Source: Microbispora catharanthi (lineage in GTDB: Bacteria; Actinomycetota; Actinomycetes; Streptosporangiales; Streptosporangiaceae). Taken from it: 64,000 bases of DNA. The stretch is taken from the NCBI RefSeq assembly GCF_006334915.2, contig NZ_VDMA02000008.1:1-64000 (forward strand). The letters run 5' to 3'. The translations under genes and the position numbers were made by a program. The notes beneath the pieces are model-generated. The model ran no database searches and was not told the DNA's origin. It saw only the letters and a list, made by a program, of their open reading frames with translations. Shown in pieces: positions 23,382 through 41,828 of this stretch; the stretch's first letter is position 1; each line of letters starts with the position of its first letter.

Positions 23382-23474
23382 ATGGGCGTGATCACGAAAA
23401 TGATGCCGATAGAAGCGTCACCGGTGCGAGGTGACGGATTCGGAGCGCGCACGGCTGCGGTCACGCCTTGTTGA
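23382..23474 (+). CDS. 30-residue ORF overlapping the ATP-grasp gene
   Basis: ATG at 23382, close behind GGTGGG, opens 30 codons starting MGVITKMMPIEASPVRGD and ending with a C-terminal Cys. Its TGA (23472-23474) overlaps the start of the ATP-grasp gene, so the two are coupled. It contains one Glu, one Asp and several Ser/Thr, and so could be a substrate of the ligase. It lacks the repeated Thr/Asp core of known graspetides, so it may equally be a translational leader. Confidence 0.4.
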   Translation: MGVITKMMPIEASPVRGDGFGARTAAVTPC

Positions 23475-24619
23475 GCGCCACCGGCGTCCCGGGCCAGGCC
23501 GGGCCGGGCCGGTCGTGCGACCCTCACCTCACCGTCGATCTGCGCGGATCGCCGGGCTCGGTGTCGTGGCGGCTCCCGGAGACCGGGCTGGTCACGGACG
23601 CCGCGCCCTGCGTCGTGCTGGCCGACCGTGCGGGCTGCGCCGAGTTCGCCGTCCTCCAGGACACGCTGCACCACCTCGGGGTGCCGAGCGTACGCGTCGA
23701 CGCCGAGAGCGTGGCCGCGCTGCGGCTGTCCGCCGCGGTGACCGGCGGGGCCGGACACGACCGCACCTGGTGCGTGCTCGACCTTGACGGCCGCCGGATC
23801 GCTCCGACCGTCGTCTGGGCGCGCCACTTCTCCCCCCGGGCCATGCCCGCGACGGCGGATGCCGCACAGACCCTCTTGCGGGCCGAGTCCTGGCACGCGT
23901 TCGTCCGCCAGCTCTGCTCGCTCGCGCCGGCGAGCCTGCCCGGCAACCGTCCCGGTCGTCTGGAGCAACTCGCCGGGGCCGCGGCCGCCGGCATCCGCGT
24001 TCCCCGGACGGTCGTCACCACCGCCCCGGCGGAGGCCGCCGCCGCGATGCCGGGCCGCAGGGTCGTGGTCAAGGTCGTCGGGGAGCACTTCGTCGAGGCC
24101 TCGCCCGGCCTCCTGACCGGGGCGCTCCCCGAGATCGCGGCACGTGCGGAGGTCCTGCGCCGGCCCGCGCTCGACCATCCGGTCATCGTGCAGGAACACG
24201 TCGAGCACGACGCCGAGCTGCGGGTCTACCACGTCGCCGGGGCCGTGCACGCCTACGCCGTCGGCAAGCGCGCCCCCGACTCGCCCTGGCGGGAGGAGGC
24301 CGGGGTGACGGTCACGCAGGTCGCCGCCCCGCCCGCGGTCGCCGACGCCGTACGCGGGCTCGCGAGCCTGTGGGGGTTGACCTACGGCGCCTTCGACCTG
24401 CTGCTCAGCGCGGGCGAGGTGGTGTTCCTCGAGGTCAACACCGACGGCGACTGGCGCTGGTTCGAGGCGAAGGCCGGAGGGCGTGAGGTCTCCACCGCCG
24501 TCGCGCTCGCGATCAGGACGCTCCACCTGGCGGCCCTGGGGAAGGCGGGACCCCCATCGCCGCTCGAACTCGTCGACTTCCTCCTGTTAGGCACTCGGAC
24601 ACGCGGCTCCCGCCGGTGA
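23468..24619 (+). CDS. ATP-grasp ligase, MvdC/MvdD (graspetide synthetase)-like
   Basis: About 383 residues from TTG at 23468. An N-terminal pre-ATP-grasp region (about 40-130) with VLADRAGCAEFAVLQD and WARHFSPRAMP precedes the ATP-grasp fold. That fold shows VVVKVVGEHFVEA, IVQEHVEHDAELRVYHV and the metal-binding FLEVNTDGDWRWFEAKAG (320-337), whose E-x-N-x-x-G-x-W-x-W pattern is characteristic of peptide-modifying MvdD/TgnB relatives. These make omega-ester or amide crosslinks in peptides. A small ORF overlaps its start and a SARP regulator follows. No transporter of the usual graspetide type is coupled, though an MFS gene is convergent. Confidence 0.82.
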   Translation: MLSATGVPGQAGPGRSCDPHLTVDLRGSPGSVSWRLPETGLVTDAAPCVVLADRAGCAEFAVLQDTLHHLGVPSVRVDAESVAALRLSAAVTGGAGHDRTWCVLDLDGRRIAPTVVWARHFSPRAMPATADAAQTLLRAESWHAFVRQLCSLAPASLPGNRPGRLEQLAGAAAAGIRVPRTVVTTAPAEAAAAMPGRRVVVKVVGEHFVEASPGLLTGALPEIAARAEVLRRPALDHPVIVQEHVEHDAELRVYHVAGAVHAYAVGKRAPDSPWREEAGVTVTQVAAPPAVADAVRGLASLWGLTYGAFDLLLSAGEVVFLEVNTDGDWRWFEAKAGGREVSTAVALAIRTLHLAALGKAGPPSPLELVDFLLLGTRTRGSRR

Positions 24620-24657
24620 CCGGGGTCGCCGCGCAGACCCGGACCAAGGAAAGCGCC

Positions 24658-26463
24658 ATGGGTGACGTGAGCTCGCCGCGACTGCACTGTTCTGTACTCG
24701 GTTCGCTGGAGGTCCGCGTCGCGGGCCGCAGGGCCGTCATCGGCGCTCCGAAACAGCGGCTTCTCCTGGCGATACTGCTGTGCCACGCGAACGCGGTCAT
24801 CCCGTCGGACCAGCTGATCGACTCGTTGTGGGGCGAGACCCCGCCGCGTACGGCCCGCAAGAACCTGCAGGTCTACATGTCCGCGCTCCGCAAGATCGTG
24901 GGCGACCGGATCAGCTTCCAGGGATGGGGCTATCGCATCAGCGCCGATCGCGAGGAGCTCGACCTGCTGCGCTTCCTGGAGCTGGGCAGGTCGGGGCGCG
25001 CCGCCGTCCGGAGCGGAGACCTCGCCACCGCCGCCGCGCTGCTGGGCGACGCCGTCCGCATGTGGCGGGAACGGCCGCTCGAGGAGTTCTGCCACGTCCC
25101 GCTCGTGGCCGCCGAGGTGGGCCGCTTCACCGAGCTCTTCCTGTCGATCTACGAGGACTGGGTCGAGCTGGAGATCGAGCTGGGCCGCCACGTCGACGCC
25201 CTGGGCTCCCTCGACGTCGTCGCCGCACGGTTCCCCGCCCGCGAGCGCGTCGCCGCGGCCAGGATGACCGCGCTGTCGCGGTGCGGGCGGGCCGCCGAGG
25301 CCCTGGCCCACTTCGAGGGCCTGCGCCGGCACCTCGCCGCCGAGATGGGCATCGATCCCAGCCCGTTGATCAGGCAGCTCTACCAGGCCATCCTCCGCGG
25401 TGACGGGCCCCCGCCCGCGCGTCTCCCCGGCCTGTCCGGCGTCGTCCGCCCCCGGCCCGTACGCGCCCTGGCGAACCGGCTGCCCCGCGCCATCGACGAC
25501 TTCGTGGGCCGTGAGGCGGAGGTGCGGCGCGTCCTGGACGAGCCCGCGCCCGTCACGGTGATCACGGGCGGGCTCGGCGCCGGCAAGACCGCCCTCGCCG
25601 TGCACGTCGCGCACCTGCTGGCCCCCCGCTATCCGGACGGCGCCGTGGTGATCCCGCTGCGGTGCCACGGAGTCGCCAGGCCGGCCGCCGACGTCCAGCG
25701 GGAGATCCTGGAGGGCGTCGGACTGGAGGTCGCCGGCGTGCGCGGGGACGACGTGCTGGCCTCTGTCTGGCGGTCGTGGCTCGCCGACCGGAAGGTCCTG
25801 CTGGTCCTCGACGACTCGCCGGACGAGTCGAGCGTCCGCATGCTGCTCCCCGGCACCACGTCGAGCAGAGTCCTGGTGACGAGCCGGAACAGGCTCAGCG
25901 GGCTGGAGTCGGTGGCCAGGATCGATCTCGAGGACCTGTCCACGAGTGAGGGCGTCGAGTTCCTGAGCCGGTTGATCGGCCGCCACCGGGTGGCCGGGGA
26001 TCTGCCCGCCGTCCTGCGGATCTTCCGTAGGTGCGGGCTGTCGCCGCTGGTCCTGCGCCTGCTCGGGGGACGGCTCGCCGGGCTGCGGCACCTGCCGCTC
26101 GGCCTGCTGGCGGAGCGGCTGGAACGGACCGAGGACGTGCTGGACGAGTTCGTCGCGGGGGACGTGTCACTGCGCCGGCGGTTCGAGGAGTCCTACGCCC
26201 ACCCGTCGTGGCCGCACCGCGCCGCGTTCCTCGCCTTGGGCGCGCTCGACGGCCCGGTCTTCGGGCACGAGGAGCTCGTCGTGGCGCTGGACGGCACCGA
26301 AGGGCCGGGCGAGCGGGTCATCGAGTCCCTGTTGGAGGCCGGTGTCCTGTCGATCCCGCAGGTAGAGACCGACGTCGAAGTGGTCGCCCACTCCTTGTCG
26401 TACGCGATGTCACCGCTCGCCCACCGGTTCGCGGCCGAGCTCGGCGAGGACCGGAACCGCTGA
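24658..26463 (+). CDS. SARP-family regulator with BTAD and NB-ARC domains (AfsR-like)
   Basis: 601 residues. A winged-helix Trans_reg_C domain (about 8-95: IGAPKQRLLLAILLCHANAV, SLWGETPPRTARKNLQVYMS) is followed by a BTAD (about 98-245), then an NB-ARC ATPase (about 285-590) with P-loop GGLGAGKTALA and VLLVLDDSPD. This is the AfsR/DnrI architecture without the TPR tail. SARPs activate pathway genes by binding direct repeats. ATG at 24658 has AAGGAAAG before it; a GTG at 24616 overlapping the ATP-grasp stop is an alternative that would couple the two. Likely targets are the ATP-grasp unit and perhaps the region at 27765. Confidence 0.88.
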   Translation: MGDVSSPRLHCSVLGSLEVRVAGRRAVIGAPKQRLLLAILLCHANAVIPSDQLIDSLWGETPPRTARKNLQVYMSALRKIVGDRISFQGWGYRISADREELDLLRFLELGRSGRAAVRSGDLATAAALLGDAVRMWRERPLEEFCHVPLVAAEVGRFTELFLSIYEDWVELEIELGRHVDALGSLDVVAARFPARERVAAARMTALSRCGRAAEALAHFEGLRRHLAAEMGIDPSPLIRQLYQAILRGDGPPPARLPGLSGVVRPRPVRALANRLPRAIDDFVGREAEVRRVLDEPAPVTVITGGLGAGKTALAVHVAHLLAPRYPDGAVVIPLRCHGVARPAADVQREILEGVGLEVAGVRGDDVLASVWRSWLADRKVLLVLDDSPDESSVRMLLPGTTSSRVLVTSRNRLSGLESVARIDLEDLSTSEGVEFLSRLIGRHRVAGDLPAVLRIFRRCGLSPLVLRLLGGRLAGLRHLPLGLLAERLERTEDVLDEFVAGDVSLRRRFEESYAHPSWPHRAAFLALGALDGPVFGHEELVVALDGTEGPGERVIESLLEAGVLSIPQVETDVEVVAHSLSYAMSPLAHRFAAELGEDRNR

Positions 26464-27732
26464 GGGCGCGGAACCGGTGGCGGCGGCAGCCGGCACGTGG
26501 AGGCCGCGCAGCGCGGGGCTGATCGAGGCCACCACGCTGCACGCCGCGAGCAGGCCGCCCACCGCCACCAGCGCGCCGGCGCCGCCGACGTACTGCGCCA
26601 GCAGGCCGCCGAGCAGCGGCCCGACCGGGGTCAGGCCCATGGTGGCCATGGTGAACACGGAGACCACCCGGCCCGTCATCGCGTCCGGGACGAGCCTGGC
26701 GAGCAGGACACGCAGGACCACGTTGAGCGCCGGCGCCGCGACCGTCGCGAGGAAGAGCGGGACCACCGGCCAGTACGGCCCGAACGGCAGGGCGGTCGCG
26801 CAGACGGCCAGCGCGAAGAATCCGACCACGGCCGGCATGAGCCTGCCCGGCGGCAGCAGGCGTCCGATCCTGGCCGACAGGGTCGCGCCGAGCAGACCGC
26901 CCAGGCCCAGCCCGGCCAGCACGACGCCGGTCGCGGCCGCATCACCGCCGCGCGCCTCCACCATGACGATGACGGGCAGCAGCAGCGCGTTCGCGACGAG
27001 GTTGGCGACCAGGGCGAACGCCAGCCCCGCGCGCAGGCCGCGATGGCGCCACAGCCAGCCCGCCGCCTCCATGACGTCGGCCCGCATCCCGGTCTCGCGC
27101 CGCTCCGCCGCCCCCGCCGGCCGGCGCGGCACCCGCGCGCGCACCACGCACACCAGCGAGACCAGATAGCTGAGCGCGTCCACGGCGAACGGGAGGGCCC
27201 GGCCCAGGCCGAACAGGAGGCCGCCGAGTGGCGGCCCGGCGAGGGCGGCCGCGTGCCCGCGCGCCTCCTCCTGGGCGTACGCCTCGGGAAGCTGCCCGGG
27301 AGCCACGACCCCGCGGATCGCGGCGGCTCTGGCGGGGCCGAAGAAGGAGTCGGCCGCGCCGGTCACCACCGCGACCGCCAAGATCTGCCACAGCGCCACC
27401 CGGCCGGTCAGGACGGCGGCGGCGAGCGCGGCCAGGGCGAGACACCGGACGACCTCGGCGGCGATCAGGATCCGGCGCCGGTCCCACCGGTCCACCCACG
27501 CCCCGGCTGGCAGGGAGAACAGGAGATTGGCCGTGATCCGGCAGGCGCCGACCAGCCCGGCCAGCGCGGCGGAGCCGGTGACGGCCAGGATCAGCAGCGG
27601 GAAGGCCACCCAGGTGAGCGTGGTCCCCAGCTCCGATGCCGCCGCCCCCATCCAGAGCATCTGGAACCGGGAGTTACGGCGCAGCGGCGGCAGCTCACCG
27701 CGCTTACTGATTCGCTCGCTCCGCTCGCTCAT
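26410..27732 (-). CDS. MFS exporter (enterobactin exporter EntS-like)
   Basis: 440 residues, about 12 membrane helices. The MFS signature VDRWDRRRILIAAEVVRC lies in loop 2-3; GPARAAAIRGVVAPGQLPEAYAQ is typical of the MFS_3/EntS group of drug and siderophore exporters. The N-terminus MSERSERISKRGELPPLRR is unusual: its first seven codons are the dispersed 22-bp repeat (27711-27732). The 3' end overlaps the SARP gene by 54 bp. It diverges from the cyclase operon, so the operator-like repeats at 27765-27855 lie in its promoter. Confidence 0.88.
   Translation of the reverse strand: MSERSERISKRGELPPLRRNSRFQMLWMGAAASELGTTLTWVAFPLLILAVTGSAALAGLVGACRITANLLFSLPAGAWVDRWDRRRILIAAEVVRCLALAALAAAVLTGRVALWQILAVAVVTGAADSFFGPARAAAIRGVVAPGQLPEAYAQEEARGHAAALAGPPLGGLLFGLGRALPFAVDALSYLVSLVCVVRARVPRRPAGAAERRETGMRADVMEAAGWLWRHRGLRAGLAFALVANLVANALLLPVIVMVEARGGDAAATGVVLAGLGLGGLLGATLSARIGRLLPPGRLMPAVVGFFALAVCATALPFGPYWPVVPLFLATVAAPALNVVLRVLLARLVPDAMTGRVVSVFTMATMGLTPVGPLLGGLLAQYVGGAGALVAVGGLLAACSVVASISPALRGLHVPAAAATGSAPSAVPVLAELGREPVGER
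27711..27732 (-). repeat. Dispersed start-codon repeat, copy 1
   Basis: On the minus strand ATG plus GAGCGAGCGGAGCGAGCGAA encodes the first residues MSERSER of the MFS exporter. Two further copies differing at one to three positions occur at 35544-35565 and 40631-40652, each also forming a gene start. Confidence 0.75.
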
Positions 27733-27764: not shown

Positions 27765-27855
27765 AGTAGGGACGCGGTATGGGGCCGGTATGGGCGGCCG
27801 GACCAGGCGTGATCGGGGCCAGTATGGCGACGGCATGGCGTCGCCATACTGGCCC
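27765..27855. promoter_or_regulatory. Operator-like region: 11-bp direct repeats and a 17-bp inverted repeat
   Basis: Three repeats with an exact 11-bp period carry GTAGGG (27766), GTATGG (27777) and GTATGG (27788), as CAGTAGGGACG, CGGTATGGGGC, CGGTATGGGCG. Beyond them a perfect 17-bp inverted repeat, GGGCCAGTATGGCGACG (27816-27832) and its complement (27839-27855), repeats the same GTATGG core on both arms around a 6-base loop. It lies between the divergent MFS gene and the cyclase operon. An 11-bp period is typical of SARP sites; the palindrome could be a dimer site or RNA hairpin. Confidence 0.6.
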
Positions 27856-27942: not shown

Positions 27943-28155
27943 ATGAACAGCCGCGAGGTTCATAGCGGGCCGGCGCCGTTCGACCCGTTGACGGCCCTGC
28001 GCGAGGCGGGTCACCCGGTGGACCTGCTCAACGAGCGGCAGCGGCAGGTGTTCGCCGAGCTGAGCAGGCCGGAGGTCGAGCTGCTCAACTCGATCAAGAC
28101 CCGCCTGGACGCGGCAGCGGGCGAGGTCGAGGGGCAGGAGCTCAAGCTCGTATGA
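27943..28155 (+). CDS. 70-residue peptide of the cyclase/protease operon (aroma-sacti-type domain)
   Basis: 70 residues without Cys: PFDPLTALREAGHPVDLL, then LLNSIKTRLDAAAGEVEGQE and a hydrophobic end. ATG at 27943 has the strong site AGGAGGT. From memory, such small proteins are labelled 'aroma-sacti cluster domain' and occur beside cyclase and S8 protease genes in actinomycetes. The helical, Nif11-leader-like look allows it to be either a peptide substrate or an adaptor. Its stop overlaps the cyclase start as ATGA (28152-28155). No biochemical function is known to me. Confidence 0.75.
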   Translation: MNSREVHSGPAPFDPLTALREAGHPVDLLNERQRQVFAELSRPEVELLNSIKTRLDAAAGEVEGQELKLV

Positions 28156-31100
28156 GCGCCGGGGCGGCCCGCCCTACGCGCCGGAACGTCGTCGTCGTCT
28201 TCATCGACCTGGTCGGCTCGACGGAGCTCGCAGAACGGCTCGATCCCGAGCTGCTCCGGGACGTCCTCGACCGCTACTACCGGGCGTGCACCTCCGGCAT
28301 CGAGGAGCACGGCGGCGTGGTGGAGAAATACATCGGGGACGCGATCATGGCCGCCTTCGGCATCCCCGCCGGCCGCGAGGACGACGCGCTCCGCGCGGTC
28401 CGCGCCGCGCACGCCGCGCTGCAGCGGGTGCGCGAGCTGAGCGAGGACCTGGCCCCCACGCACGGCATCCGGCTCGACGTGCACTGCGGCGTGAGCGCCG
28501 GGGAGGCTGTGGTCATCGCCACTCCGGGAGCGGACCTGCGCGTCATCGGCGACACCGTCAACACGGCCGCCCGCCTGCAGTCGGCCGCGGGCGTCGGCGA
28601 GATCCTCGTCGGGGACGAGGTCGCGCGCATGGTCCGCGCCCAGGCGCGTCTCGAGCCCGTGCCGCCGCTCACGCTGAAGGGCAAGAGCAACCCCGTACGG
28701 GCCTGGCGGGTGACCTCCCTGGAGCCCGAAACCGGCCACGACGACGACCAGATCCCGCTCATCGGCCGCGACTCCGAGATCGGGCGCCTGCGCGCCGCGT
28801 ACCGCGAGGCGGTGCGGGATCGCCGGTGCCGGGTGGTGACCGTGCTCGGCGTGCCGGGCATCGGCAAGTCCCGGCTCGTGCGCGACTTCGTCCACGAGCT
28901 GCCCGCCGGGGTCACCGTGATCACCGGCCGGTGCCGCTCGTACGGCGTGGGGATCACCTACCGCCCCATTGTGGAGATGGTCGAATCCCTCGGCGACGAC
29001 TGGCGGGACATCCAGCCGGCGCTGGAGGCGTCGAGTGGCTCCACCCTGCGCGGCCTGGCGACCGCCGACGCCTCGCGCGCGCCGCGCACCGGGGAGGACG
29101 CGGGCGTCGAGGAGATCTCGCGGGCGGTGCGCGCACTGTTCGAGGCGCTGGCCCGGCGCGGCCCGCTGGTGGCGGTCTGGGAGGACCTGCACTGGGCCGA
29201 GCCGACCCTGCTCGACCTGATCGACGACCTCGCGGCGTGGCTCGCCGACGTGCCCGTCCTGGTCGTACGGGTGGCCAGGCCCGAGCTGCTGGAGGCGCGG
29301 CCCGCCTGGGGGGACGACGCGGAGCGTGCCGCCGCGTTCGAGCTGGGGGCGCTCGACGCCGCTCAGATGGAACGGCTGGTCGCCGAGCTGGCCGCACACC
29401 GGCTGCCGGACGCCGAGGTGGTCGCCCACGACATGGCCGCCGGCCCGGCCCTGTGCCTGCGGGTCGCGCGGAGCTCCGACGGCAACCCGCTGTTCGCCGA
29501 GCTGCTGCTGGAGACGCTGGCCGAGGAGGGGGAGGACGCCCCGCTGCCGCCCACCATCCAGGCGCTGCTCGGCGCGCGCCTCGACCGGCTCGACGAGGGG
29601 GAGCGCGACGTGCTCGAACGCGCCGCGACGATCGGCCACCTCTTCACCCGCGACCAGCTCGGCGTCCTCTGCGCGGCCGAGCCGCAGGCCCGGCTCGACG
29701 TCGACGAGCTGCTCGGGCGCCTGATCCGCACGCGCATGGTCCGGCGCGGGGAGGCGCCGGGGTCGTTCCGCTTCGCTCAGACGCTGACCCGGGACACGGT
29801 CTACGCCATGACCCGCAAGGACCTGCGGGCCACCTGGCATCTGGCCCTCGCCGACCGGATCGCCGGCCGGGCCGGCGCCGCCGCGGCATCCCGCGCCGCC
29901 CTTTCGTCCCGTGCCGCGGAGGAGAGCTCGCACGGCGACCTGACCCACCACCTGGAGACCGCCTGCCTGCTCAAACGCGAGGTGCGGCCGGACGACCCGA
30001 TGCTGCCGGCGCTCACCGAGCGGGCCGCCCGCGCCCTGGTGGGCGAGGGCACCCAGGCGCTGCACCGCAAGGACCTGCCCGCCGCCATCGCCCTGCTGGA
30101 GCGGGGGCGCGACCTGCTGCCGGCCGGCCACGCCGAGCACCGGGTGCTGGCGGTGCGCATCTGCGACGCCGGGCTGGCCCACGGCGAGGCCGACCGGCCG
30201 TACGACGCGCTGGATGTGGCCGAGCGGATGCTGCCGGACGACCGGCGCAACCGGCTGATCTGCGCCATTCAGCGCGAGACGCTGGCAGTGCGCTTCGGCA
30301 CCCGGCCCGCGTCGGGCGAGCCGTTCCGCGACCTGCTGGCCGCCGACCCCGGCGACGACCTCGGCTGGTGCCGTTTCCACCATCTCCAGGCGCTGGTGCG
30401 CATCGGCGAGGGCCGGTTCGGGGCGGCCGAGGCGGCGCTGCGCGACGCCCTGGCCCGGGCCCGCTCCCTCGGCGACAGATATGAGGAGAACCGCCTGCTC
30501 AGCGGGCTCTGCGAGCTGGCGCAGTGGTCCCCCACGCCGCTGGCCGAGGGGCTGAGCCTGTGCGTCGGGGTGTCGGGCAGGTTCCGCGCCGACCGGGCGA
30601 TGCTCCTGCCCGTCCTGGTCACCGAGGCGCGGCTGCTCGCGCTCGCCGGCTACGTCACCGCTGCCAGGGCCGTCCTCGACAAGGCCGACCAGTACGCCCG
30701 CGACCTCCACCTCGACCTCGCGGCGACCGCGGTCCTCCAGGTGCGCGGGCTGGTGGAGTCACTCGTCGACCGGCACGCCGAGGCGGAGGCGCTGTTCCGC
30801 AGGGCGGCGGCGGACCTCCATCGGGCGGGCCAGTCCGAGCCGGCCAGGACGCTGGAGCTCTACGCCGTGCGCGAGCTGCTCCGGCAGGGGCGGCACCCCG
30901 AGGCCGCGCGGGAGCTGGACCGGTTGCGGGCCGCGGGCGGACGGCTGCAGGCCCGCGGCGAGCTGACCCTTCTCGCGCTGAGCGCCAGGGTCGCGGCCCT
31001 CGACGGCGACCACGGCGCGGCGGGCGCCCTCGCCGCCCGGGCGGAGGAACTGCTCGCCCGCACCGACGACCCCTGCCTGCGCGGCGACGTGCTGGCCGAC

Positions 31101-31244
31101 CTGGCGGTGGCGCACCGCGCGGCCGGGCGCACCGGCCCGGCGGCCCTGGCCGCGGCCCGCGCGCTGCGCGACTACGCGGCCAAGGGAGCGGAGCTGCCCG
31201 CCCGGCGCGTACGCCGGTGGATCGAGGAGGAGAGGCGACCTTGA
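28152..31244 (+). CDS. Class III adenylate cyclase fused to AAA-type ATPase and TPR-like region
   Basis: 1030 residues. The cyclase domain (about 12-185) has both metal Asp (Asp19 in FIDLVGSTEL, Asp63 in EKYIGDAIMAAFG), Lys59 and Asp134 that specify adenine, and the transition-state pair Asn137/Arg141 in GDTVNTAARLQ. All are intact, so cAMP synthesis is expected. An AAA_16/NACHT-like ATPase follows with P-loop GVPGIGKSRL (233-242). The rest is a long helical, TPR-like repeat region. No transmembrane segment is seen. This is an STAND-type signal protein in which a ligand sensed by the repeats could control cyclase output. Start and stop both overlap neighbouring genes. Confidence 0.9.
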   Translation: MSAGAARPTRRNVVVVFIDLVGSTELAERLDPELLRDVLDRYYRACTSGIEEHGGVVEKYIGDAIMAAFGIPAGREDDALRAVRAAHAALQRVRELSEDLAPTHGIRLDVHCGVSAGEAVVIATPGADLRVIGDTVNTAARLQSAAGVGEILVGDEVARMVRAQARLEPVPPLTLKGKSNPVRAWRVTSLEPETGHDDDQIPLIGRDSEIGRLRAAYREAVRDRRCRVVTVLGVPGIGKSRLVRDFVHELPAGVTVITGRCRSYGVGITYRPIVEMVESLGDDWRDIQPALEASSGSTLRGLATADASRAPRTGEDAGVEEISRAVRALFEALARRGPLVAVWEDLHWAEPTLLDLIDDLAAWLADVPVLVVRVARPELLEARPAWGDDAERAAAFELGALDAAQMERLVAELAAHRLPDAEVVAHDMAAGPALCLRVARSSDGNPLFAELLLETLAEEGEDAPLPPTIQALLGARLDRLDEGERDVLERAATIGHLFTRDQLGVLCAAEPQARLDVDELLGRLIRTRMVRRGEAPGSFRFAQTLTRDTVYAMTRKDLRATWHLALADRIAGRAGAAAASRAALSSRAAEESSHGDLTHHLETACLLKREVRPDDPMLPALTERAARALVGEGTQALHRKDLPAAIALLERGRDLLPAGHAEHRVLAVRICDAGLAHGEADRPYDALDVAERMLPDDRRNRLICAIQRETLAVRFGTRPASGEPFRDLLAADPGDDLGWCRFHHLQALVRIGEGRFGAAEAALRDALARARSLGDRYEENRLLSGLCELAQWSPTPLAEGLSLCVGVSGRFRADRAMLLPVLVTEARLLALAGYVTAARAVLDKADQYARDLHLDLAATAVLQVRGLVESLVDRHAEAEALFRRAAADLHRAGQSEPARTLELYAVRELLRQGRHPEAARELDRLRAAGGRLQARGELTLLALSARVAALDGDHGAAGALAARAEELLARTDDPCLRGDVLADLAVAHRAAGRTGPAALAAARALRDYAAKGAELPARRVRRWIEEERRP

Positions 31245-32155
31245 CGCAGCCCCCATGGCGCCGGGAGCGGCGTGAGCAGTTCCCCGGCGTGCCGGCCTGG
31301 AGCCTGGCGACCTCCCGGCTGGCCCCGGAGGAGTTCGGCGTGAGCCGCCTGGAGGACGTCACCAGGGAGTGGGCCTGGGGTGGTGACGGCACAGGTGGTG
31401 ACGGCGCGGGTGACGGCGGCGCGGACCGCGCCGACGGAGCCGGCGTGCGCGTCTGCGTGCTCGACACCGGAGTGGACGCCGGTCACCCGCGAGTCGGCGG
31501 GCTGGAGCGTTCGCTGGTGGTCGCCGACGGCGAGGACCTGACGGTCGTCGACTGCGAGCCGGTGGACCCCGTGGGGCACGGGACCGCGTGCGCCGGGGTG
31601 ATCCGCTCGATCGCCCCGGCCGTCTCGCTGACCTCGGTGCGGGTGCTGACCGACGGGCGCTCCGGCAGCGGAGCCGCCCTCCTGGCCGGGCTGCGCTGGG
31701 CCGTCGAGGAGGGGTTCGACCTCGTCAACCTCAGCCTGTCCACCACCAGGAGCCGGTATCTGCCCGCGCTGCACGAGCTGGCCGACCGCGCGTACTTCCG
31801 GCGCTGCCTGCTGGTGGCCTCGGCCCACAACATGCCGGTCGTCAGCTTCCCCTGGACCTTCTCCTCGGTCATCTCGGTGGCCAGCCACGACGAACCCGAC
31901 CCCATGACCTACTACTACAACCCCGCGCCGCCGGCCGAGTTCCTCGCCCGGGGCGTCCGGGTCCCGGTGGCCTGGCGCCGCGGCAGGGAGATCCGCAGCA
32001 CCGGCAACAGCTTCGCCGCGCCGCACATCACCGGGATCTGCGCGCTCATCCTGAGCAGGCACCGGTGGATGACCCCCTTCCAGCTCAAGTCCGTGCTCTA
32101 TCTGGCCGCCAGCAACGTCGTCGCATCCAAGGGAGGCGCGCATGTCCGTGCATGA
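31241..32155 (+). CDS. Cytoplasmic S8 (subtilisin-like) serine protease
   Basis: 304 residues from TTG at 31241, which overlaps the cyclase stop (TTGA) and has GAGGAGGAG before it. The catalytic triad is complete: Asp75 (VCVLDTGVD), His113 (GHGTACAGV), Ser257 (GNSFAAPH), with oxyanion Asn197 (ASAHN). There is no signal peptide and no pro-domain; residues 1-66 form a charged, Gly/Asp-rich leader. It therefore acts inside the cell, and the operon peptide or a partner protein is the natural substrate candidate. The 3' end overlaps the GAF gene by 14 bp. Confidence 0.9.
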   Translation: MTQPPWRRERREQFPGVPAWSLATSRLAPEEFGVSRLEDVTREWAWGGDGTGGDGAGDGGADRADGAGVRVCVLDTGVDAGHPRVGGLERSLVVADGEDLTVVDCEPVDPVGHGTACAGVIRSIAPAVSLTSVRVLTDGRSGSGAALLAGLRWAVEEGFDLVNLSLSTTRSRYLPALHELADRAYFRRCLLVASAHNMPVVSFPWTFSSVISVASHDEPDPMTYYYNPAPPAEFLARGVRVPVAWRRGREIRSTGNSFAAPHITGICALILSRHRWMTPFQLKSVLYLAASNVVASKGGAHVRA

Positions 32156-32768
32156 ACGGCGCTCCGACAGCGAAATCATCGAGCGCGGGCTGCTGCAGTC
32201 CACCGTCGAGGTCGCCCGGCACGTCTTCGCCTCGGCCGCGGCGTCGGTCTTCCTGGTGGACCAGGAGACCGGCGAGCTGGTCTTCGAGGCCGTGTCGGGC
32301 GAGGGGGAGCAGCACCTGGTCGGGACGCGTTTCCCGGCCGGCACGGGCATCGCGGGCTGGGTCGCGGCGAGCGGCCAGCCGATGATCGCCGACGAGGTGA
32401 CCGCGGTGCCGCAGTTCGCCCATGACGCCGCCGAGTCCACCGGGTATGTCCCCCGCAGCATCATGGCGGCGCCGGTGATCCGGCAGGAGAGCTGCATCGG
32501 TGTGCTGGAGGTGCTCGACAGGTCGGCCACCTGGCGGGGGGACCTCGCCGACGTGGACCTCCTCGCGATGCTCGCCGCCCAGGCCGCGTACGGGCTGGAG
32601 CTTCTGCTGCGGCTGCGACGGGCCGAGACGGCGCTCCCTGCCGCGCCCGGCGGCGACGACGTCCACGTGCTGCTGCAGCGGATCTCCGACCGGGTGCCGC
32701 GCGACGGCGGGCCCGCCGACCCGACCGCCCTGAAGCTCCTCGCCGTGGCCGAGGAGTTGTTGCACTGA
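32142..32768 (+). CDS. GAF-domain sensor protein
   Basis: 208 residues. A GAF domain (about 14-160) contains ASVFLVDQETGELVFEAVSG, GTRFPAGTGIAGWVAASGQP and SCIGVLEVLDR, followed by a helical tail of about 45 residues. GAF domains bind cyclic nucleotides or other small ligands. Being encoded with a cyclase, it could be the cAMP reader of the system, though the ligand cannot be read from sequence. ATG at 32142 has GGGAGG upstream and lies inside the protease gene. Confidence 0.85.
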   Translation: MSVHERRSDSEIIERGLLQSTVEVARHVFASAAASVFLVDQETGELVFEAVSGEGEQHLVGTRFPAGTGIAGWVAASGQPMIADEVTAVPQFAHDAAESTGYVPRSIMAAPVIRQESCIGVLEVLDRSATWRGDLADVDLLAMLAAQAAYGLELLLRLRRAETALPAAPGGDDVHVLLQRISDRVPRDGGPADPTALKLLAVAEELLH

Positions 32769-32880: not shown

Positions 32881-33165
32881 ATGGAGATGCCCGTAGTCAA
32901 CCGGTGCGAGGCCACCTCGTGCGCGTACAACCGCGACGGCATGTGCCACGCCACCGCCATCACGGTCGGGGACGCGTCCCACGCGCATTGCGACACGTTC
33001 TTCACCGCGTCCACGCGGGGAGGCGACCAGGAGACCGTGGGCCGGGTGGGCGCCTGCAAGATGTCCGACTGCCGACACAACGTGGCGCTGGAGTGCCAGG
33101 CGCCCGGCATCGACATCGGCTACTCCCAGGACGAGGCCGACTGCCTCACGTACGCCCCGGCGTAG
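32881..33165 (+). CDS. DUF1540 cysteine-rich protein
   Basis: 94 residues with two Cys-rich repeats of the DUF1540 kind: VNRCEATSCAYNRDGMCHA with a later HCDTF, and VGACKMSDCRHNVALECQAP with a later ADCLTY. Eight or more conserved Cys suggest a small metal-binding (zinc) or disulfide-rich protein; there is no signal peptide. It lies 112 bp after the GAF gene and may be transcribed with it or alone. The role is unknown. Confidence 0.85.
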   Translation: MEMPVVNRCEATSCAYNRDGMCHATAITVGDASHAHCDTFFTASTRGGDQETVGRVGACKMSDCRHNVALECQAPGIDIGYSQDEADCLTYAPA

Positions 33166-33172
33166 GCGGCGC

Positions 33173-34966
33173 TCAGCTCTCCGCCTGCACCGGAGCGACC
33201 GGGGCGAAGCGGGCGATGGGGTTGTCCAGCTCGCCTGCCGTCTGCAACGCGGCCGACGGATCGGTCAGGTCCACCATCTGCCGGTTGTCGCGCAGTTGCA
33301 GGCGGTTGAGGCACGACAGGAGATGCGTCTCGGCGAACAGGTCGTAGCGCCGGAACCGGTCCGCGAGGTGCGGGACCGACCGCTGGTAGGCCGCCGCGCA
33401 CTCGGCGACGGTCCGCCAGAAGGCGTCCTCGTCCAGCACGCCGTCCGTGGCGAGCACCGCGTTGAGGAAGCGCAGGAAGCAGTCGAAGACGTCGGTGAAG
33501 ATCGACAGCAGCCGGTGTTCCTCGGGCACCTCCGCGCGGATCCGCCGGACCTCGGGCGGCAGGTCCGCGTCCGGGTCCATCACCACGATCTCCTCGGCGA
33601 TGTCCTTGAAGATCACCCGTTCCACCGTGCCGCCGTCGAGGACCAGGATGACGTTCTCGCCGTGCGGCATGAACGCCAGGTCGTACGCGTAGAAGGCGTG
33701 CAGCAACGGGACGAGGTACGCGTCGAGGTAGCGCCGCAGCCACACCTCGGGGGCGAGGCCCGACTGCTCGATCAGCGCCGCCGCGAACGACCGCCCCTCA
33801 TCGTCGGTGTGCAGCAGGGAGGCCATCGTGGCCAGGCGCCGGCCCGGCTCCAGGCCCGCGACCGGGCTCTCCCGCCACAGCGCCGCCAGCATCTTCCGGT
33901 AGGGCGAGTGGCGGTCGGTGGCCGCCTCGTACAGACGATTGCGGTAGCCGACGGCCGCCCGCTCGCGGATGATCGTCAGGCGGGTCGCGCGGAGGACCTC
34001 GTCGTCCCCGATCAGGTCGGCGAGCCAGTCGTTGATCGCCGGGGTGCCCTCCATGTAAGCCGCCGACAGGCCCCGCATGAAGCCCATGTTCAGCACCGAC
34101 AGGGCCGTCTTGACGTAGTGCCTGGACGGCTCGCTCGCGTTGAAGAACGTGCGGACCGACTGCTGGGCGAGGTGCTCGTCGTCGCCGGGGCCCAGGCAGA
34201 CCAGCCGCCGCTCGGCGACCTCCGCCGCGAACGTCACGGAGATCCGGTTCCACCACTGCCAGGGGTGCACCGGCACGAGCAGGTAGTCGGCCGGGTCGAG
34301 TCCCAGGCCGCCCAGCGTGCCCGCGAAGCGGGCCAGGACCTCCTCGCCCAGTTCGCCGCGCATCAGCCGTTCGTAGTCGATGTCGCGCGAACAGGTGAAC
34401 GTGGTGTGATCGCGGTGGGCGGCCAGCCAGATCAGCCGTACGGGCGCGGCGGCCTCGGGAGCGTACATGTGGTGGTCGTCGATCCCGTAGCCGATCCGGC
34501 CGCTGTTGGCCACGAAGCACGGGTGGCCCTCGGTCATGGCGGCCTCGATCTCCTGGAAGCCGGCCTTCGCCAGCTCGGCCGCGCCGACCGGCCGCCGGCT
34601 CAGCTTGTACGCGAGGCTCGCCAGCGTGGAGGTGATCTCCTCCAGGTAGACCGGGAGGACCTCGTCGCTCAGCCCGAGCGGGCCGCGCATCTCGGTGACG
34701 AACTCCAGCGCGTCGAGCGGCAGGGTCTCGCCGGAGAGCCGGTGGCGGGTGACCTCGCCGATGCGCCAGTGGTCCAGGGACATCACGGTGGCGGTGAAGC
34801 GATACTCCACGCCCTCACCGCGCACGGCGTACCGGCCGCCGCCGAGCGGGCGCGGGGTGAGCAGCCGCTCGTGGGCGAACTCGGCGAGCGCCTTGCGCAC
34901 CAGCCGCCGGTTGGCCTTCTCCCAGGTGGCGGGGGTGAGATGGGAGACCGCCTCGATGGGGTTCAC
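33173..34966 (-). CDS. desD: NIS siderophore synthetase DesD (IucA/IucC family)
   Basis: 597 residues of the IucA/IucC family. Recognisable segments are EGHPCFVANSGRIGYG (ATP and carboxylate binding), VPVHPWQWWNRI, FFNASEPSRHYVKTALSVLNMGFMRG and the FhuF-like C-terminal LAFMPHGENVILVLDGG. DesD joins and cyclises hydroxamated N-succinyl-cadaverine units into desferrioxamine E/B. GTG at 34966 with GGGAGG is chosen and overlaps the desC stop. It is the last gene of desABCD. Confidence 0.93.
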   Translation of the reverse strand: MNPIEAVSHLTPATWEKANRRLVRKALAEFAHERLLTPRPLGGGRYAVRGEGVEYRFTATVMSLDHWRIGEVTRHRLSGETLPLDALEFVTEMRGPLGLSDEVLPVYLEEITSTLASLAYKLSRRPVGAAELAKAGFQEIEAAMTEGHPCFVANSGRIGYGIDDHHMYAPEAAAPVRLIWLAAHRDHTTFTCSRDIDYERLMRGELGEEVLARFAGTLGGLGLDPADYLLVPVHPWQWWNRISVTFAAEVAERRLVCLGPGDDEHLAQQSVRTFFNASEPSRHYVKTALSVLNMGFMRGLSAAYMEGTPAINDWLADLIGDDEVLRATRLTIIRERAAVGYRNRLYEAATDRHSPYRKMLAALWRESPVAGLEPGRRLATMASLLHTDDEGRSFAAALIEQSGLAPEVWLRRYLDAYLVPLLHAFYAYDLAFMPHGENVILVLDGGTVERVIFKDIAEEIVVMDPDADLPPEVRRIRAEVPEEHRLLSIFTDVFDCFLRFLNAVLATDGVLDEDAFWRTVAECAAAYQRSVPHLADRFRRYDLFAETHLLSCLNRLQLRDNRQMVDLTDPSAALQTAGELDNPIARFAPVAPVQAES

Positions 34967-35565
34967 GCCGTCGCCTCCCGGGTCGCCGCGAGGAACCGCT
35001 CCCGGGTGCAGAGGCTCAGCAGGGCGTCCTTCTCCGGCTTGACGACGGTGCCCACGACCTCGAAGCCGACGGCCGCGTTGAGCGCGTGCACCGCCGTGTT
35101 GCGCACGTCGGGCTCGACCACCACCCGCCGGGTCGCGGGATCGGCGAACAGCAGCGCCATGACCGTGGTGATCACGGCCAGGGTGAAGCCGTGGACCGGG
35201 GTCTCGGCCGGCGCGCACAGGAAGTGCATGCCGGCGTCGCCCTCCTCGGCGTCGTAGAGGCCCGCCAGCTCGACCCGGGCGGGGTCGTAGCGCTCGGCCA
35301 GGAAGGCCGGGCGGCCGTTCACCAGCCCGAGGAACGCGTCGCGGTGCGGGTGTTCGACGATCTCGCGGTACTCCTTCTCCACACGGGCGACGTCGGCGTC
35401 CCGCATCATCCAGAACACGGCCTTGGGGTGGGTGACCCAGGCGTGCACGGCCGGGGCGTCGGTCCGCGGGTCGAGCCGGCGTACGGCGAGCTCGCCGACC
35501 CGGGCGTCGGTGCGGCGGAAGAGGAGGTCTCTACGCCTACCGGTTCGCTCGCTTCGCTCGCTCAC
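34963..35565 (-). CDS. desC: Siderophore N-acyltransferase DesC (IucB/GNAT)
   Basis: 200 residues of the acyl-CoA N-acyltransferase superfamily. Key regions are [34 protein letters not shown] and [24 protein letters not shown], the acetyl-CoA-binding end. It acylates N-hydroxycadaverine with succinyl- or acetyl-CoA. GTG at 35565 overlaps the desB stop as GTGA. Its first residues, [13 protein letters not shown], come from copy 2 of the dispersed 22-bp repeat and are not part of the family core. Confidence 0.9.
35544..35565 (-). repeat. Dispersed start-codon repeat, copy 2
   Basis: Minus-strand GTG plus GAGCGAGCGAAGCGAGCGAA covers the start of desC. It begins exactly at the desB TGA stop, so it supplies both the end of one gene and the start of the next. 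Confidence 0.75.
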
Positions 35566-36857
35566 GCGACCACGCCCTCGGGCGCCCCGAACTCCTGGAA
35601 GGCGATGGCCTTCTCGACGGGGTAGTGCTCCCGGCCCAGGATCTGGCCGATGATCCACGAGTTGCGGTAGGGGCCCATGCCGAGGTCGGGGGAGGTGACG
35701 CTGTGGGCGTGGGTGGCGCCGTTCTGCACGAAGATCCCCCGGCCGGTGACGTCGACGCTGTAGTTCCTGGCAACGTCGAACCGGCCGTGCCGGTCCCACC
35801 GGATCCGGTCGCGTACGGGGTCGAGGAAGGCGGGAGTCTCGTAGCGGTAGCCGGTGGCCAGCACGAGCCCCTGGGTGACGAGCGTGAAGTCGCGCTCCTG
35901 CTCCACGTGGCGCAGCCCGAGCGTGTACTCGCCCCGGCCGGGGTCGTACGCGGCCTCGCGCAGCTCGGTGCGGGTCAGCAGGCGGGTGGGGATCGGGCCG
36001 CCGACGGTCTTGGCGTACAGCAGGTCGAAGATGTCGTTGATCAGTGCCGCGTCGATGCCCTTGTAGAGGCCCTTCTGCTCGGCTTCGAGGCGGTAGCGGG
36101 TGTCCTCGGGAAGCGCGTGGAAGTAGTCCACATACTCGGGGGAGGTCATCTCCAGGGTCAGCTTGGTGTATTCCAGCGGGAAGAACCGCGGGGACCTGGT
36201 CACCCAGTTCAGCCGGTAGCGGTGTGTGTCGATGCCGGCCAGCAGGTCGCGGTAGATCTCGGCCGCGCTCTGCCCGCTGCCGACGATCGTGATGCTGTCC
36301 TTCGCCTGCAGCGCGGCCTTGGCGTCGAGATAGCCGGCGTTGTGGACGAGGTCGCCGCCGAGGCCCCGGCAGGCCTCCGGCACGTACGGCGGGGTCCCGG
36401 TGCCGAGCACGAGGTGGGGGGCCCGGTGCTCGGTCTCCTCTCCGCCGCCGGTGACCGCGCGTACGACGTAGTGGCCGTCGGCCTCGTCGTACGTCACCGA
36501 GGTCACCCGGTGGCCGAAGCGGACGCTCCGCAGCCGCGCGGCGGCCCATCGGCAGTACGCGTCGTATTCGGCGCGGAGCTGGTAGAAGCTCTCGCGGATG
36601 TAGAAGGGATACAGCCTGCCGGTCTCCTTCAGGTAGTTGAGGAAGGAGTAGGGCGAGGTCGGATCGGCCAGCGTGACGAGGTCGGCGATGAACGGCGTCT
36701 GCAGCGTCACGGAGTCGAGCATCATCCCCGGGTGCCAGGCGAAGCCGGGCCTCGCCTCCAGGAACACGCCGTCGAGCTCGGCGATGGGCTCGGCGAGGCA
36801 GGCCAGGCCCAGGTTGAACGGCCCCAGCCCGATCGCGACGAAGTCATGAGTGGACAT
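35562..36857 (-). CDS. desB: Cadaverine/lysine N6-monooxygenase DesB
   Basis: 431 residues, flavin N-hydroxylating monooxygenase. FAD site [13 protein letters not shown] (8-20), [22 protein letters not shown], the NADPH motif [15 protein letters not shown] and the C-terminal [13 protein letters not shown] are all present. It hydroxylates cadaverine for hydroxamate formation. ATG at 36857 lies 14 bp inside the end of desA, and its stop overlaps desC. Confidence 0.94.
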
Positions 36858-38346
36858 GCGTTACCTCCGAGTGGTCGGCGACCGGGGCGAGGTCATCCAC
36901 ATACCGCTGGGCGTGTCCGGCGAGGAGGTCGAGGACATGCGCGACGTCGTCCAGCGTGGTCTCCGGGTTGAGCAGGGTGAGCTTCAGGTGGTGGCGGCCG
37001 TCGACCGTGGTCCCCGCGACGACGGCCTCGCCGGAGGCGGCCAGCGCCTCGCGGGCGTACAGGTTCGCGTCGTCGGCGAGCTTGCGGCCCGGACCTTCCT
37101 GCGGCAGGTAGCGGAAGACCAGGGTGCTCAGCGGCGACCGCGTGACGACCTCGAAGCGCGGGTCCGCCGCGACGAGGGCGTACGACGCGGCCGCGCGGTC
37201 CACGACCTCGTCGAACAGCTCCCCGACCGCGTCCGGGCCCATCACCCGCAGCGTCAGCCAGAGCTTGAGCGCGTCGAAGCGGCGGGTGGTCTGCAGGCTC
37301 TTGTCCACCTGGTTGGGGATCCCCCGCTCGGCCATCCGCCGGGGGTTGAGGTAGTCGGCGTGGTGGGCCGCGTGCCGCAGCACCGCGCCGTCGCGCACCA
37401 GCAGGGCGCTCGAGCTGACCGGCTGGAAGAAGGACTTGTGGAAGTCGACGGTGACCGAGTCGGCCCGCTCGATCCCGGCGAGCAGGTGCCGCCGTCTGCG
37501 GGAGACCAGCAGCCCGCAGCCGTACGCCGCGTCCACGTGCAGCCACACCCCGGCCGATCTACACAGGGAGGCGATCTCCGGCAGGGGGTCGATCGAGCCG
37601 AAGTCGGTGGTGCCCGCGGTGGCCACCACGGCCATGACCACCAGTCCGGCGCGGCGGCAGCGGCCGAGTTCGCGGGCGAGCGCGGCCGGCCGCATCCGCC
37701 GTTCGTCGTCGGTCTCCACGGTGACGACGGCGTCCGGTCCGAGGCCGAGCAGGTTCGCCGCCTTGCGCACGCTGAAGTGCCCGGCCTCGGACGTGATCAC
37801 GCGTAGCCGCGAAGGAACGGCACCGGCGTTCGTACGAACCTCCTCGCGGGCGAGCAGCAGGGCGTGGAGGTTCGACTGCGTGCCGCCGCTGGTGAAGACG
37901 CCGTCGGCGGCGGGGCCGAAGCCGATCCGGCCGGCCGTCCATTCGATCAGGCGGCGCTCGATGAGCGTGCCGCCCGCGCTCTGGTCCCACGTGTCGAGGG
38001 AGGAGTTCACCGCCGACAACACCGCCTCCCCCAGCAGCGCGGGGATCACCACCGGGCAGTTGAGGTGCGCCAGGTAGCGGGGGTGGTGGAAGTAGACGGC
38101 GTCGCGCAGGTAGACCCGTTCGAGCTCGTCGAGGGCGGCGGCGTGGTCGTGCAGCGGCCGTTCGAGGTCGATCGCGGCGATCTCCGGCGTGAGCCGTTCC
38201 GGGGACACGCCGCTGAACGGCCGGTCGGCGCGCCGGATCCGGTCCGCCACCCGCTCGGTCGCCGCGGCCATCGCCCGCCGGTATCCCTCCACTGTGCGGT
38301 CGTTGAACAGGTATGGCCGCGCGGCCCCGGCATGGGGAGAGGTCAT
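36844..38346 (-). CDS. desA: PLP-dependent lysine decarboxylase DesA
   Basis: 500 residues, group II PLP decarboxylase. [28 protein letters not shown] (the pyridine-N Asp272) and [13 protein letters not shown] with Schiff-base Lys304 are visible. It makes cadaverine from lysine, the first desferrioxamine step. ATG at 38346, with AAGG seven bases before, is preferred to the ATG at 38352. The iron box at 38368-38386 stands directly upstream, predicting repression by Fe(II)-loaded DmdR/IdeR. Confidence 0.93.
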
Positions 38347-38367
38347 TGCCATCCTTACCGTGAGAAG

Positions 38368-38386
38368 TTAGGTTAGGCGAACCTAA
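38368..38386. promoter_or_regulatory. Iron box (DmdR/IdeR operator) upstream of desA
   Basis: TTAGGTTAGGCGAACCTAA matches the 19-bp actinobacterial iron box (TTAGGTTAGGCTCACCTAA type) with complete outer arms. It lies 21 bp before the desA start and also 48 bp beyond the desE stop. Confidence 0.92.
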
Positions 38387-38433
38387 TTTTTGGGAGTCGA
38401 CACGTGTCCCCGGGTGATTTATCCGAAGCGTGG

Positions 38434-39477: not shown

Positions 39478-39519
39478 GGGGCAGGTTCTGCCGGCACCGG
39501 CCTTGGGGTTGATCGCTAG

Positions 39520-39538
39520 TTAGGTTACCCTTACCTAA
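39520..39538. promoter_or_regulatory. Iron box between desE and the permease operon
   Basis: TTAGGTTACCCTTACCTAA keeps both arms of the 19-bp iron box with central changes. It is placed 43 bp from the desE start and 20 bp from the permease start, so one repressor site can control both divergent transcripts. Confidence 0.9.
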
Positions 39539-39557
39539 GTTCTTGTCCAGAGGGGCG

Positions 39558-40634: not shown

Positions 40635-40652
40635 GCGAGCGTGGCGAGCGAA
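40631..40652 (+). repeat. Dispersed start-codon repeat, copy 3
   Basis: ATG plus GAGCGAGCGTGGCGAGCGAA, differing from copies 1 and 2 at the two central positions. As in copy 2 it begins at the TGA stop of the preceding gene. Confidence 0.75.
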
Positions 40653-40741
40653 TCAACAGGCACAGCGTGATCCGCTACAGAGTCACCTGCGCGCCTCCGG
40701 CACGACGGAACTCCGAGCCGTCAGGCGAGGAGAAGGCATGA
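40631..40741 (+). CDS. 36-residue mini-ORF between the two permease genes
   Basis: ATG at 40631 overlaps the stop of the first permease (ATGA), and the mini-ORF stop overlaps the start of the second permease (ATGA, 40738-40741). The frame begins with the dispersed repeat (MSERGERINRHSVIRY) and ends with EEKA; the codons for its tail contain GGCGAGGAGAAGGC, the ribosome site for the next gene. It looks like a roughly 107-bp insertion that keeps ribosomes passing along the operon. The peptide itself probably has no function. Confidence 0.55.
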   Translation: MSERGERINRHSVIRYRVTCAPPARRNSEPSGEEKA

Positions 40742-41778: not shown

Positions 41779-41828
41779 CCCAGACGATCGAGCACGGAAC
41801 CAGCGGACAGGGGAACGGAGTGGCGGGC

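Follow-up and report, generated by a model that had tools for sequence, protein, structure and literature searches.

What is the function of an operon in which a small peptide, an adenylate cyclase-ATPase, a subtilase and a GAF-domain protein are encoded by genes that each overlap the next? The question is raised by positions 27943-32768 of the stretch analyzed here (the window), the first 64,000 nucleotides of contig NZ_VDMA02000008.1 from Microbispora catharanthi. A sequence-only reading of this DNA had envisaged a STAND-type sensor that makes cyclic AMP (cAMP), a GAF protein that reads it, and a protease that cuts the peptide or another target. We consider it more plausible, with a rough probability of 0.72, that the operon is the processing-and-control cassette of a ribosomally synthesized and post-translationally modified peptide (RiPP) system of the radical S-adenosylmethionine (radical-SAM) kind, rather than a stand-alone cAMP or defense system. 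Its parts (an S8 leader-type protease, a cyclase-STAND protein and a GAF protein) are ordinary, and no description of their arrangement was found in the open PubMed Central (PMC) literature among the matches listed. The argument turns on the following features.

27943-28155, forward strand: operon peptide (P0001), a 70-residue, cysteine-free aroma-sacti prepeptide (NF045560, 80.9 bits)
28123-28137, forward strand: boundary motif EVEGQ in the peptide, the proposed S8 recognition site
28138-28152, forward strand: C-terminal tail ELKLV, the proposed released pentapeptide
28152-31244, forward strand: cyclase-ATPase (P0002), with class III cyclase, AAA, winged-helix and helical-repeat parts (STAND); overlaps the peptide gene as ATGA
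31241-32155, forward strand: S8 subtilase (P0003), the proposed cytoplasmic leader peptidase; overlaps the cyclase gene as TTGA, with a TTG start
32142-32768, forward strand: GAF protein (P0004), the constant partner of S8 (PF01590, 61.9 bits); 14-bp overlap with the S8 gene

All four reading frames, with their coordinates and overlaps, are as the sequence-only reading gave them, and the overlaps persist in relatives. Among the scorable loci of L037-L073, an in-frame start lies at or before the previous stop in 26 of 28 peptide/cyclase, 31 of 34 cyclase/S8 and 36 of 37 S8/GAF junctions; because these overlapping starts are kept across orthologous loci, the frames are true genes rather than chance openings. 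These loci come from a subtilase-only search of genome contigs. Of the 80 loci retained, L037-L073 are the 37 close ones, at 53-95 percent identity, and L074-L116 the 43 distant ones, at 27-36 percent. A GAF match adjoins S8 in all 37 close loci, the cyclase-ATPase homology cluster occurs in 34 and the peptide cluster in 28, while at the 43 distant subtilases neither peptide nor GAF was matched (E <= 1e-3). Three close loci have no cyclase: L047 and L067 are cut short by the ends of their contigs, and L071 is a Thermoleophilia record. An apparent absence of the peptide from L054-L056, L058, L059 and L068 proved mistaken; in each of the six genomes it sits ahead of a SARP gene, outside the first flank. 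Hosts include Microbispora, Streptosporangium, Nonomuraea, Herbidospora, Streptomyces, Kitasatospora, Actinacidiphila and Lentzea, and across these actinomycetes the four genes are found together often, not rarely. Gene calls throughout were made with our own codon-usage caller, which missed S8 in L138 and L143. At L039:3528-4930 the operon is naturally interrupted by a 380-residue gene on the opposite strand, which parts the peptide gene from that of the cyclase.

The peptide points toward RiPP biosynthesis. It lies well above the 30-bit cut-off of NCBIfam NF045560 (aroma_sacti_dom), a leader family common to this peptide and to StsA-type sactipeptide precursors, and below that of the StsA model itself (NF045559; 31.6 bits against 75). 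By this profile match it carries a sactipeptide-type precursor leader, without cysteine, a membership overlooked when the peptide was described as having no known role. The term "aroma-sacti" was not found in the open PMC literature. On another contig of the same genome (C7; L117:575-9460) lie an StsA-like precursor, StsB (909.4 bits, cut-off 625), genes for a RiPP recognition element (RRE)-like protein and a flavin adenine dinucleotide (FAD) enzyme, YcaO and TfuA; the last two hint at an extra backbone modification such as thioamidation.

Co-occurrence extends this link. Across 150 genomes of the order, the leader family exceeds its cut-off in 24, S8 is found in 25 (E <= 1e-30) and StsB in 16, and both the 24 and the 16 fall inside the 25. 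In the remaining genome, G108, S8 is just 47 percent identical, but a small DVQGH-bearing gene and radical-SAM remnants are present (L143). StsB lies about 5 kb from S8 in 8 of the 16 genomes and on a different contig in 6 (G073 and 5 genomes from the genus of the window), which in a draft genome means not adjacent but not necessarily far apart. In G015 the two share a contig at a distance of 3.4 Mb, and in G118 S8 sits at a contig end, so that no distance can be given. Six of 11 genomes of the window's genus have S8 and StsB, one (G096) has S8 without StsB, and 4 have neither. In the 37 close loci, the homology clusters around the cassette are radical-SAM (27 loci), ATP-grasp (25), major facilitator superfamily (MFS) transporter (17), flavoprotein (10), SARP (8), PqqD/RRE-like (8) and FAD enzyme (8), named from profile scans except for the RRE-like and FAD proteins, which were named by reading. 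This context was missed before: radical-SAM peptide clusters, an ATP-grasp enzyme, a SARP regulator and an MFS transporter belong with the operon.

A further line of evidence is a short motif, [DE]-[VT]-x-[AG]-[HQ], which precedes the C-terminal part both in leader-family peptides and in several radical-SAM precursors with quite different leaders. It reads EVEGQ-ELKLV at the C-terminus of the operon peptide, EVEAH-TVPVEGKCLCGAWSGSGSGAD in the StsA-like peptide of the same genome, and EVVAH in L042 and L044; L122 has eight tandem genes with DVVAH or DVIAH. Within 6 kb of S8, small called genes carry the motif at 43 of 57 ortholog loci and at 0 of 43 unrelated-subtilase loci, an enrichment that is partly circular because the leader hidden Markov model (HMM) covers the motif; shuffled peptides gave it at a mean of 2.48 and a maximum of 7 loci. 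The non-circular part is its presence in 7 of 11 S8 loci that have no leader-family peptide (within L131-L145), usually in the form of DD[VT]x[AG]H units repeated in tandem. FxsB-type radical-SAM loci, which were not screened for the cassette, yielded it in 0 of 30 (3-kb stretches, 40 small called genes). L120 and L121, a copy and a near copy of other loci, were excluded from the motif, peptide-assignment and GAF counts, and the motif count also excluded the window, L117, L129 and L130; further loci comprise 16 stretches taken from 27 places found, plus places in G108, G040 and G073.

The tandem repeats lie in small acidic proteins: DVEGH once and DVQGH three times in L132, DVEGH three times in L133, ETSGH once and DVAGH four times in L135, DVEGH or DTEGH seven times in L136, and DTQGH four times in L141. 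It is possible that these are multi-copy peptide precursors; NCBIfam and Pfam scans of the five gave nothing over cut-off. Their genes (L132:3389-3601, L133:7411-7599, L135:10842-11099, L136:10454-10810 and L141:8557-8760) belong to distant actinobacteria and have S8, GAF and Crp-like genes nearby. The tandem genes at L122:7518-9180 are eight precursor-like genes of 39-46 residues, divergent from the cassette and without a helical leader, whose products show MTEPNEAV or similar, DVVAH or DVIAH, and WCG.

The motif has a published likeness. For ElxP, a cytoplasmic S8 leader protease, the available part of PMC10885120 reports the motif (D/E-5)(L/V-4)XX(Q-1); EVEGQ matches this pattern, and the histidine of many relatives does not. 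The resemblance suggests that S8 probably cuts after the boundary motif, here freeing ELKLV. Matches listed from the open PMC literature included no relevant title on the boundary motif itself.

The catalytic triad of S8, D75, H113 and S257, together with the likely oxyanion residue N197, is kept in 45 of 45 aligned orthologs. The structural model matches subtilisins (predicted local distance difference test score, pLDDT, 80.4, with residues 1-34 and 50-60 below 50), and the triad in this fold places the protein among the S8 subtilases. The intact triad had already been recognized, as had the absence of a secretion signal; the N-terminus has no hydrophobic stretch, judged by reading only, with no signal-peptide predictor. 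Counting the window, a GAF gene lies within 2 kb of S8 at 58 of 58 ortholog loci and a relative of the cyclase-ATPase within 9 kb at 48 of 58 (two of the ten without one are the contig ends L047 and L067), so it is S8 with which the GAF protein travels, and we propose that it holds or gates the protease. A Crp-like protein lies within 6 kb at 7 of the 58, all distant; two of the Crp-like proteins were profile-scanned. NKFDE is the motif of cyclic-nucleotide GAF domains, and the aligned region here reads VLDRSATWRGDLADVD, with NKFDE absent. A GAF protein that has lost this motif and follows S8, not the cyclase, is a poor candidate for a cAMP receptor, and that earlier proposal was rejected as the leading idea.

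For the cyclase-ATPase, the sequence-only reading of a STAND-type protein is supported. Class III cyclases use an Asp pair for metal, a Lys/Asp pair for adenine and an Asn/Arg pair for the transition state. All six residues are present in P0002, in keeping with the class III adenylate cyclases, but their conservation among orthologs is uneven: K59, D63 and R141 are kept in 41 of 41, D19 in 40 (one gap), D134 in 39 (Glu in two) and N137 in only 30 (His in ten, Pro in one). The P-loop is intact, with Walker A residues G233, G236, G238 and K239 in 41 of 41. AAA_16 matches at 81.1 bits, and Pfam finds no tetratricopeptide repeat (TPR) family in P0002 itself. The model (pLDDT 85.9, predicted template modeling score 0.72) has a cyclase domain (about residues 8-190), an AAA domain, a winged helix and a long helical-repeat half, with domain limits set by reading; Foldseek ranks adenylate and guanylate cyclases first and the STAND-TPR structure 6mfv eighth. 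Together these features bear out the STAND assignment.

These observations suggest a division of labor. S8, probably with GAF as its partner or regulator, would act in the cytoplasm as a leader peptidase, cleaving behind [D/E]-V-x-[A/G]-[H/Q]. Its substrates would be precursors modified by radical-SAM enzymes (the likeliest in this strain being the StsA-type sactipeptide whose gene is on a different contig), and it would also cut the 70-residue operon peptide to free ELKLV. The STAND cyclase may serve as the signal-integrating regulator of the cassette, and ATP-grasp, SARP and MFS proteins would supply accessory, regulatory and export functions.

Why, then, should a cysteine-free peptide carry such a leader? 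An HMM was built from the family and peptides with E <= 1e-6 were retained, weaker ones such as the GGLFW peptide of L119 being uncounted; the partner of each was taken as the next called same-strand gene of at least 150 residues. L052 was dropped in favor of L154 of the same genome, and three L119 peptides, 137-896 bp before the cyclase, were scored as STAND-linked. Of the resulting 77 peptides, 47 have a Cys-free tail followed by a STAND regulator (39 cyclase, 8 SARP) and 26 have a Cys in the tail followed by a radical-SAM gene; crossings between the two classes number 0 of 77. The other four have no partner class, owing to the inserted opposite gene in L039, sequence ends in L070 and L125, and another adjoining gene in L129. 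Since the rows are related sequences, a Fisher value for this split is not a probability of independent events. Cys-free tails have Lys at position -3 in 41 of 49 cases and Phe or Trp last in 8 of 49. In the six zinc-ribbon-cyclase genomes the Cys-free peptide precedes SARP, not the cyclase; the pairing that stays constant is therefore with a STAND regulator as such, not with any single gene.

This pairing is the basis for an extension that we offer tentatively, at less than even odds: one cytoplasmic S8-GAF protease would mature both Cys-bearing product precursors, paired with radical-SAM enzymes, and Cys-free signal precursors, paired with STAND proteins, the two kinds having leader family and cut motif in common, and the freed tail (ELKLV in this operon, generally with Lys at -3) would bind the STAND cyclase or SARP, such that the regulator senses protease activity. 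Partial correlations between tail and domain, given the cyclase domain, do not single out the repeat domain: they are 0.62 for the N-terminal half of the TPR region, 0.45 for its C-terminal half, 0.35 for AAA and 0.16 for the winged helix (n=34), and 0.42, 0.31, 0.52 and 0.16, respectively, for the 31 Lys-type sequences.

Among the Cys-bearing peptides, L061:3951-4148 and ten similar loci (L057, L060, L062-L064, L066, L069, L070, L072 and L073) encode leader-family precursors of about 65 residues that adjoin a radical-SAM gene and end in NVLC, NVVC or NTVC. The flavoprotein cluster of 10 of the 37 loci (PF02441 in L057) suggests, with these termini, decarboxylation of the C-terminal Cys.

Several observations weigh against the cassette reading. 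The leader HMM spans the motif, such that the leader-bearing loci (29 of 30 with the motif, and most of the 43) are partly circular evidence, and 14 of the 57 S8 loci have no motif in a called small gene. Six of these have their peptide beyond the first flank, the gene of L062 was called too long, and L047, L067 and L144 are cut by contig ends; L071, L137, L142 and L145 are real or near misses, with only DALGH and DAHGH in L137, a single DVEAH in proteins of about 285 residues in L142 and L145, and none in L144. The strict motif also excludes the AVEGQ found in many Streptomyces-type Cys precursors. Within this genus StsB and S8 lie on separate contigs or, in G015, whose genome is a single contig, 3.4 Mb apart. 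None of the counts is corrected for phylogeny, which the p values for the overlap among genomes likewise ignore. No radical-SAM gene adjoining the operon was seen among the window's gene calls, and no radical-SAM partner of the L042 type was found in the genome at E <= 1e-10, an empty result that, with no positive-control genome, shows nothing alone. S8 itself falls below the family cut-offs of QhpE, mycosin and PatA, and S9-type peptidase genes (named by reading) in some loci could share the processing.

Other accounts read the same parts differently. The Cys-free peptide might itself be the precursor of a RiPP product, its tail (ELKLV here, GGLLF or GAGLW elsewhere) being modified by an ATP-grasp or radical-SAM enzyme, cut by S8 and exported, with the cyclase regulating expression only. 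The leader family shared with Cys-bearing precursors, the ATP-grasp cluster in 25 of 37 loci and the tandem peptide copies of L119 speak for this, as do radical-SAM genes found ahead of a GGLLF-type peptide. In L118 (PF04055) and L127 such a gene is the immediate upstream neighbor, whereas in L139 and L140 it stands two genes upstream; those of L127, L139 and L140 were assigned by reading. Yet a radical-SAM gene follows 0 of the 47 assigned Cys-free peptides, no ATP-grasp gene is seen in the displayed 2.5-13.5 kb part of L048-L053, and Lys -3 is conserved where its acidic partner is not (tails STAIKLA and VSVKVV); we rate a product role for this peptide as less likely than not. A Lys-Glu crosslink formed in ELKLV by ATP-grasp was also entertained as the general chemistry, and is weakened because the acidic residue varies across tails.

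The stand-alone cAMP pathway, in which cAMP from the STAND protein is read by GAF and switches the protease, draws on the largely conserved catalytic residues of the cyclase and on several distant loci where S8-GAF occurs with a Crp-like protein, some also with a cyclase; replacement of N137 in 11 of 41 orthologs, and a GAF protein that lacks NKFDE and stays with S8 even where no cyclase is nearby, make it improbable. Antiphage defense, through a Pycsar-like cyclase or an IetAS-like pair, is very improbable. PADLOC models of PycC reach 68.4 bits against the cyclase, and S8 matches a subtilase model at 71.5 bits and IetS weakly (18.4 bits over residues 69-120, 52 residues; PADLOC displays no cut-off). 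IetAS, however, pairs the IetA ATPase with the IetS subtilase, and among the PADLOC hits of the five proteins scanned there was no IetA and no effector; the neighborhood in relatives is RiPP biosynthesis, and the similarity is that of generic cyclases and subtilases. Of the signaling, defense or maturation roles first suggested, signaling and maturation were the right neighborhood, and defense was not supported.

Upstream of the operon lie the following features.

23468-24619, forward strand: ATP-grasp protein, a relative of RiPP maturases, accessory (TIGR04187, 91.7 bits)
24616-26463, forward strand: SARP-type regulator with an NB-ARC ATPase (BTAD 120.3 bits, NB-ARC 30 bits)
26410-27732, reverse strand: MFS transporter, divergent from the operon (TIGR00900, 192.9 bits, cut-off 319.6)
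27778-27795, forward strand: heptad pair with an 11-bp period, a putative SARP-type box; one of only two in the window, with 0.06 expected (200 shuffles)
27817-27854, strand not applicable: palindromic operator candidate that holds the second heptad pair (27823-27840); its pattern occurs nowhere else in the 9.25-Mb genome

SARP regulators bind heptad pairs of this 11-bp period; in 11 of 39 loci such pairs stand some 100 bp ahead of the peptide gene, and the SARP gene ends 1.5 kb from the heptad and palindrome region. The ATP-grasp protein scores 91.7, 55.3 and 48.1 bits against TIGR04187, TIGR04185 and TIGR04184, below their cut-offs of 350, 425 and 475; the score for MvdC is 55.3 bits. Around other cassettes, genes for a radical-SAM-like protein and a protein of 220-250 residues lie upstream of a Cys-free peptide with the tail GGLLF, GGALF or GAGLW (L118:8423-9442, L119:7696-8382, L127:9679-11555, L139:4331-6171 and L140:4000-5828). 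Downstream of GAF, 32881-33165 encodes a DUF1540 protein (50 bits, two stretches), whose cluster is confined to six loci, all from Microbispora (L037-L042), and in L040 stands some 2.3 kb away from GAF; 33173-42644 resembles, by reading, a cluster for a hydroxamate siderophore and its uptake.

For many RiPPs discovered by mining no leader protease is known, and this stands in the way of making the mature peptide. The conserved S8-GAF pair, whose cut site is predicted here, could do this work in actinomycetes for StsA-type sactipeptides and for several further kinds of radical-SAM precursor, including where the genes do not adjoin. To our knowledge, what most STAND regulators sense is an open question, and the pairing of Cys-free peptides with STAND proteins offers a directly testable idea of their input. 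Were the signal reading true, RiPP clusters would contain a built-in peptide signal that ties production to maturation, an RRNPP-like logic (a short peptide bound by a repeat-domain regulator) in actinobacteria built on STAND proteins, of which DD[VT]x[AG]H tandem-repeat peptides with cyclase and Crp would be a distant form.

Among the matches listed, the closest published notice is of branch 6 ATP-grasp loci, which are described as complex and as holding adenylate cyclases along with SPASM radical-SAM enzymes, YcaO and TfuA (PMC8939145); an S8-GAF pair, a cyclase-coupled prepeptide and a common boundary motif are not named in the available part of that paper. The TOMM system kinase/cyclase (TIGR03903) is also a cyclase-ATPase named for a RiPP system, but P0002 reaches 160 bits against a cut-off of 705.75, covers only positions 284-876 of the 1267 in the profile, and has no kinase domain in a Pfam scan. 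Rgg proteins are TPR regulators. The Rgg/SHP-controlled RaS-RiPPs of streptococci combine a radical-SAM RiPP operon with a short-peptide/regulator system (PMC8092268, as far as its text was available), whereas here there is no SHP or Rgg, the prepeptide shares the RiPP leader, and the regulators are STAND proteins.

ElxP, QhpE, PatA and AmyP, the S8 leader proteases of RiPPs and of QhpC, share the fold and triad of P0003. In the accessible portions of PMC10885120 and PMC7876137, ElxP and QhpE are described as cytoplasmic, the ElxP site as acidic-hydrophobic-x-x-Gln, and QhpE as removing the leader of a radical-SAM-crosslinked protein. QhpE is thereby a precedent, in favor of the cassette reading, for an S8 protease that removes leaders in the cytoplasm next to a radical-SAM enzyme. 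The S8 described here differs in being always paired with GAF and in occurring with unlike precursor classes, and it scores 97.8 bits against QhpE (NF049966, cut-off 165) and 27.4 bits against the PatA/PatG cyanobactin protease (TIGR03895, cut-off 421.05). For StsA, the available part of PMC12710340 reports that a double alanine substitution at E(-11)/M(-10) does not abolish RRE binding and that those at W/V, K/P and a further K/P pair do; the E/M pair might belong to the boundary motif. The StsABC system shares its leader domain (NF045560) with the operon peptide, is represented in this genome by the StsA-like precursor and StsB of contig C7, and adjoins the cassette in 8 of 16 StsB genomes. 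The operon peptide departs from it in being Cys-free, in falling below the StsA model cut-off, and in being coupled to a STAND cyclase rather than to StsB.

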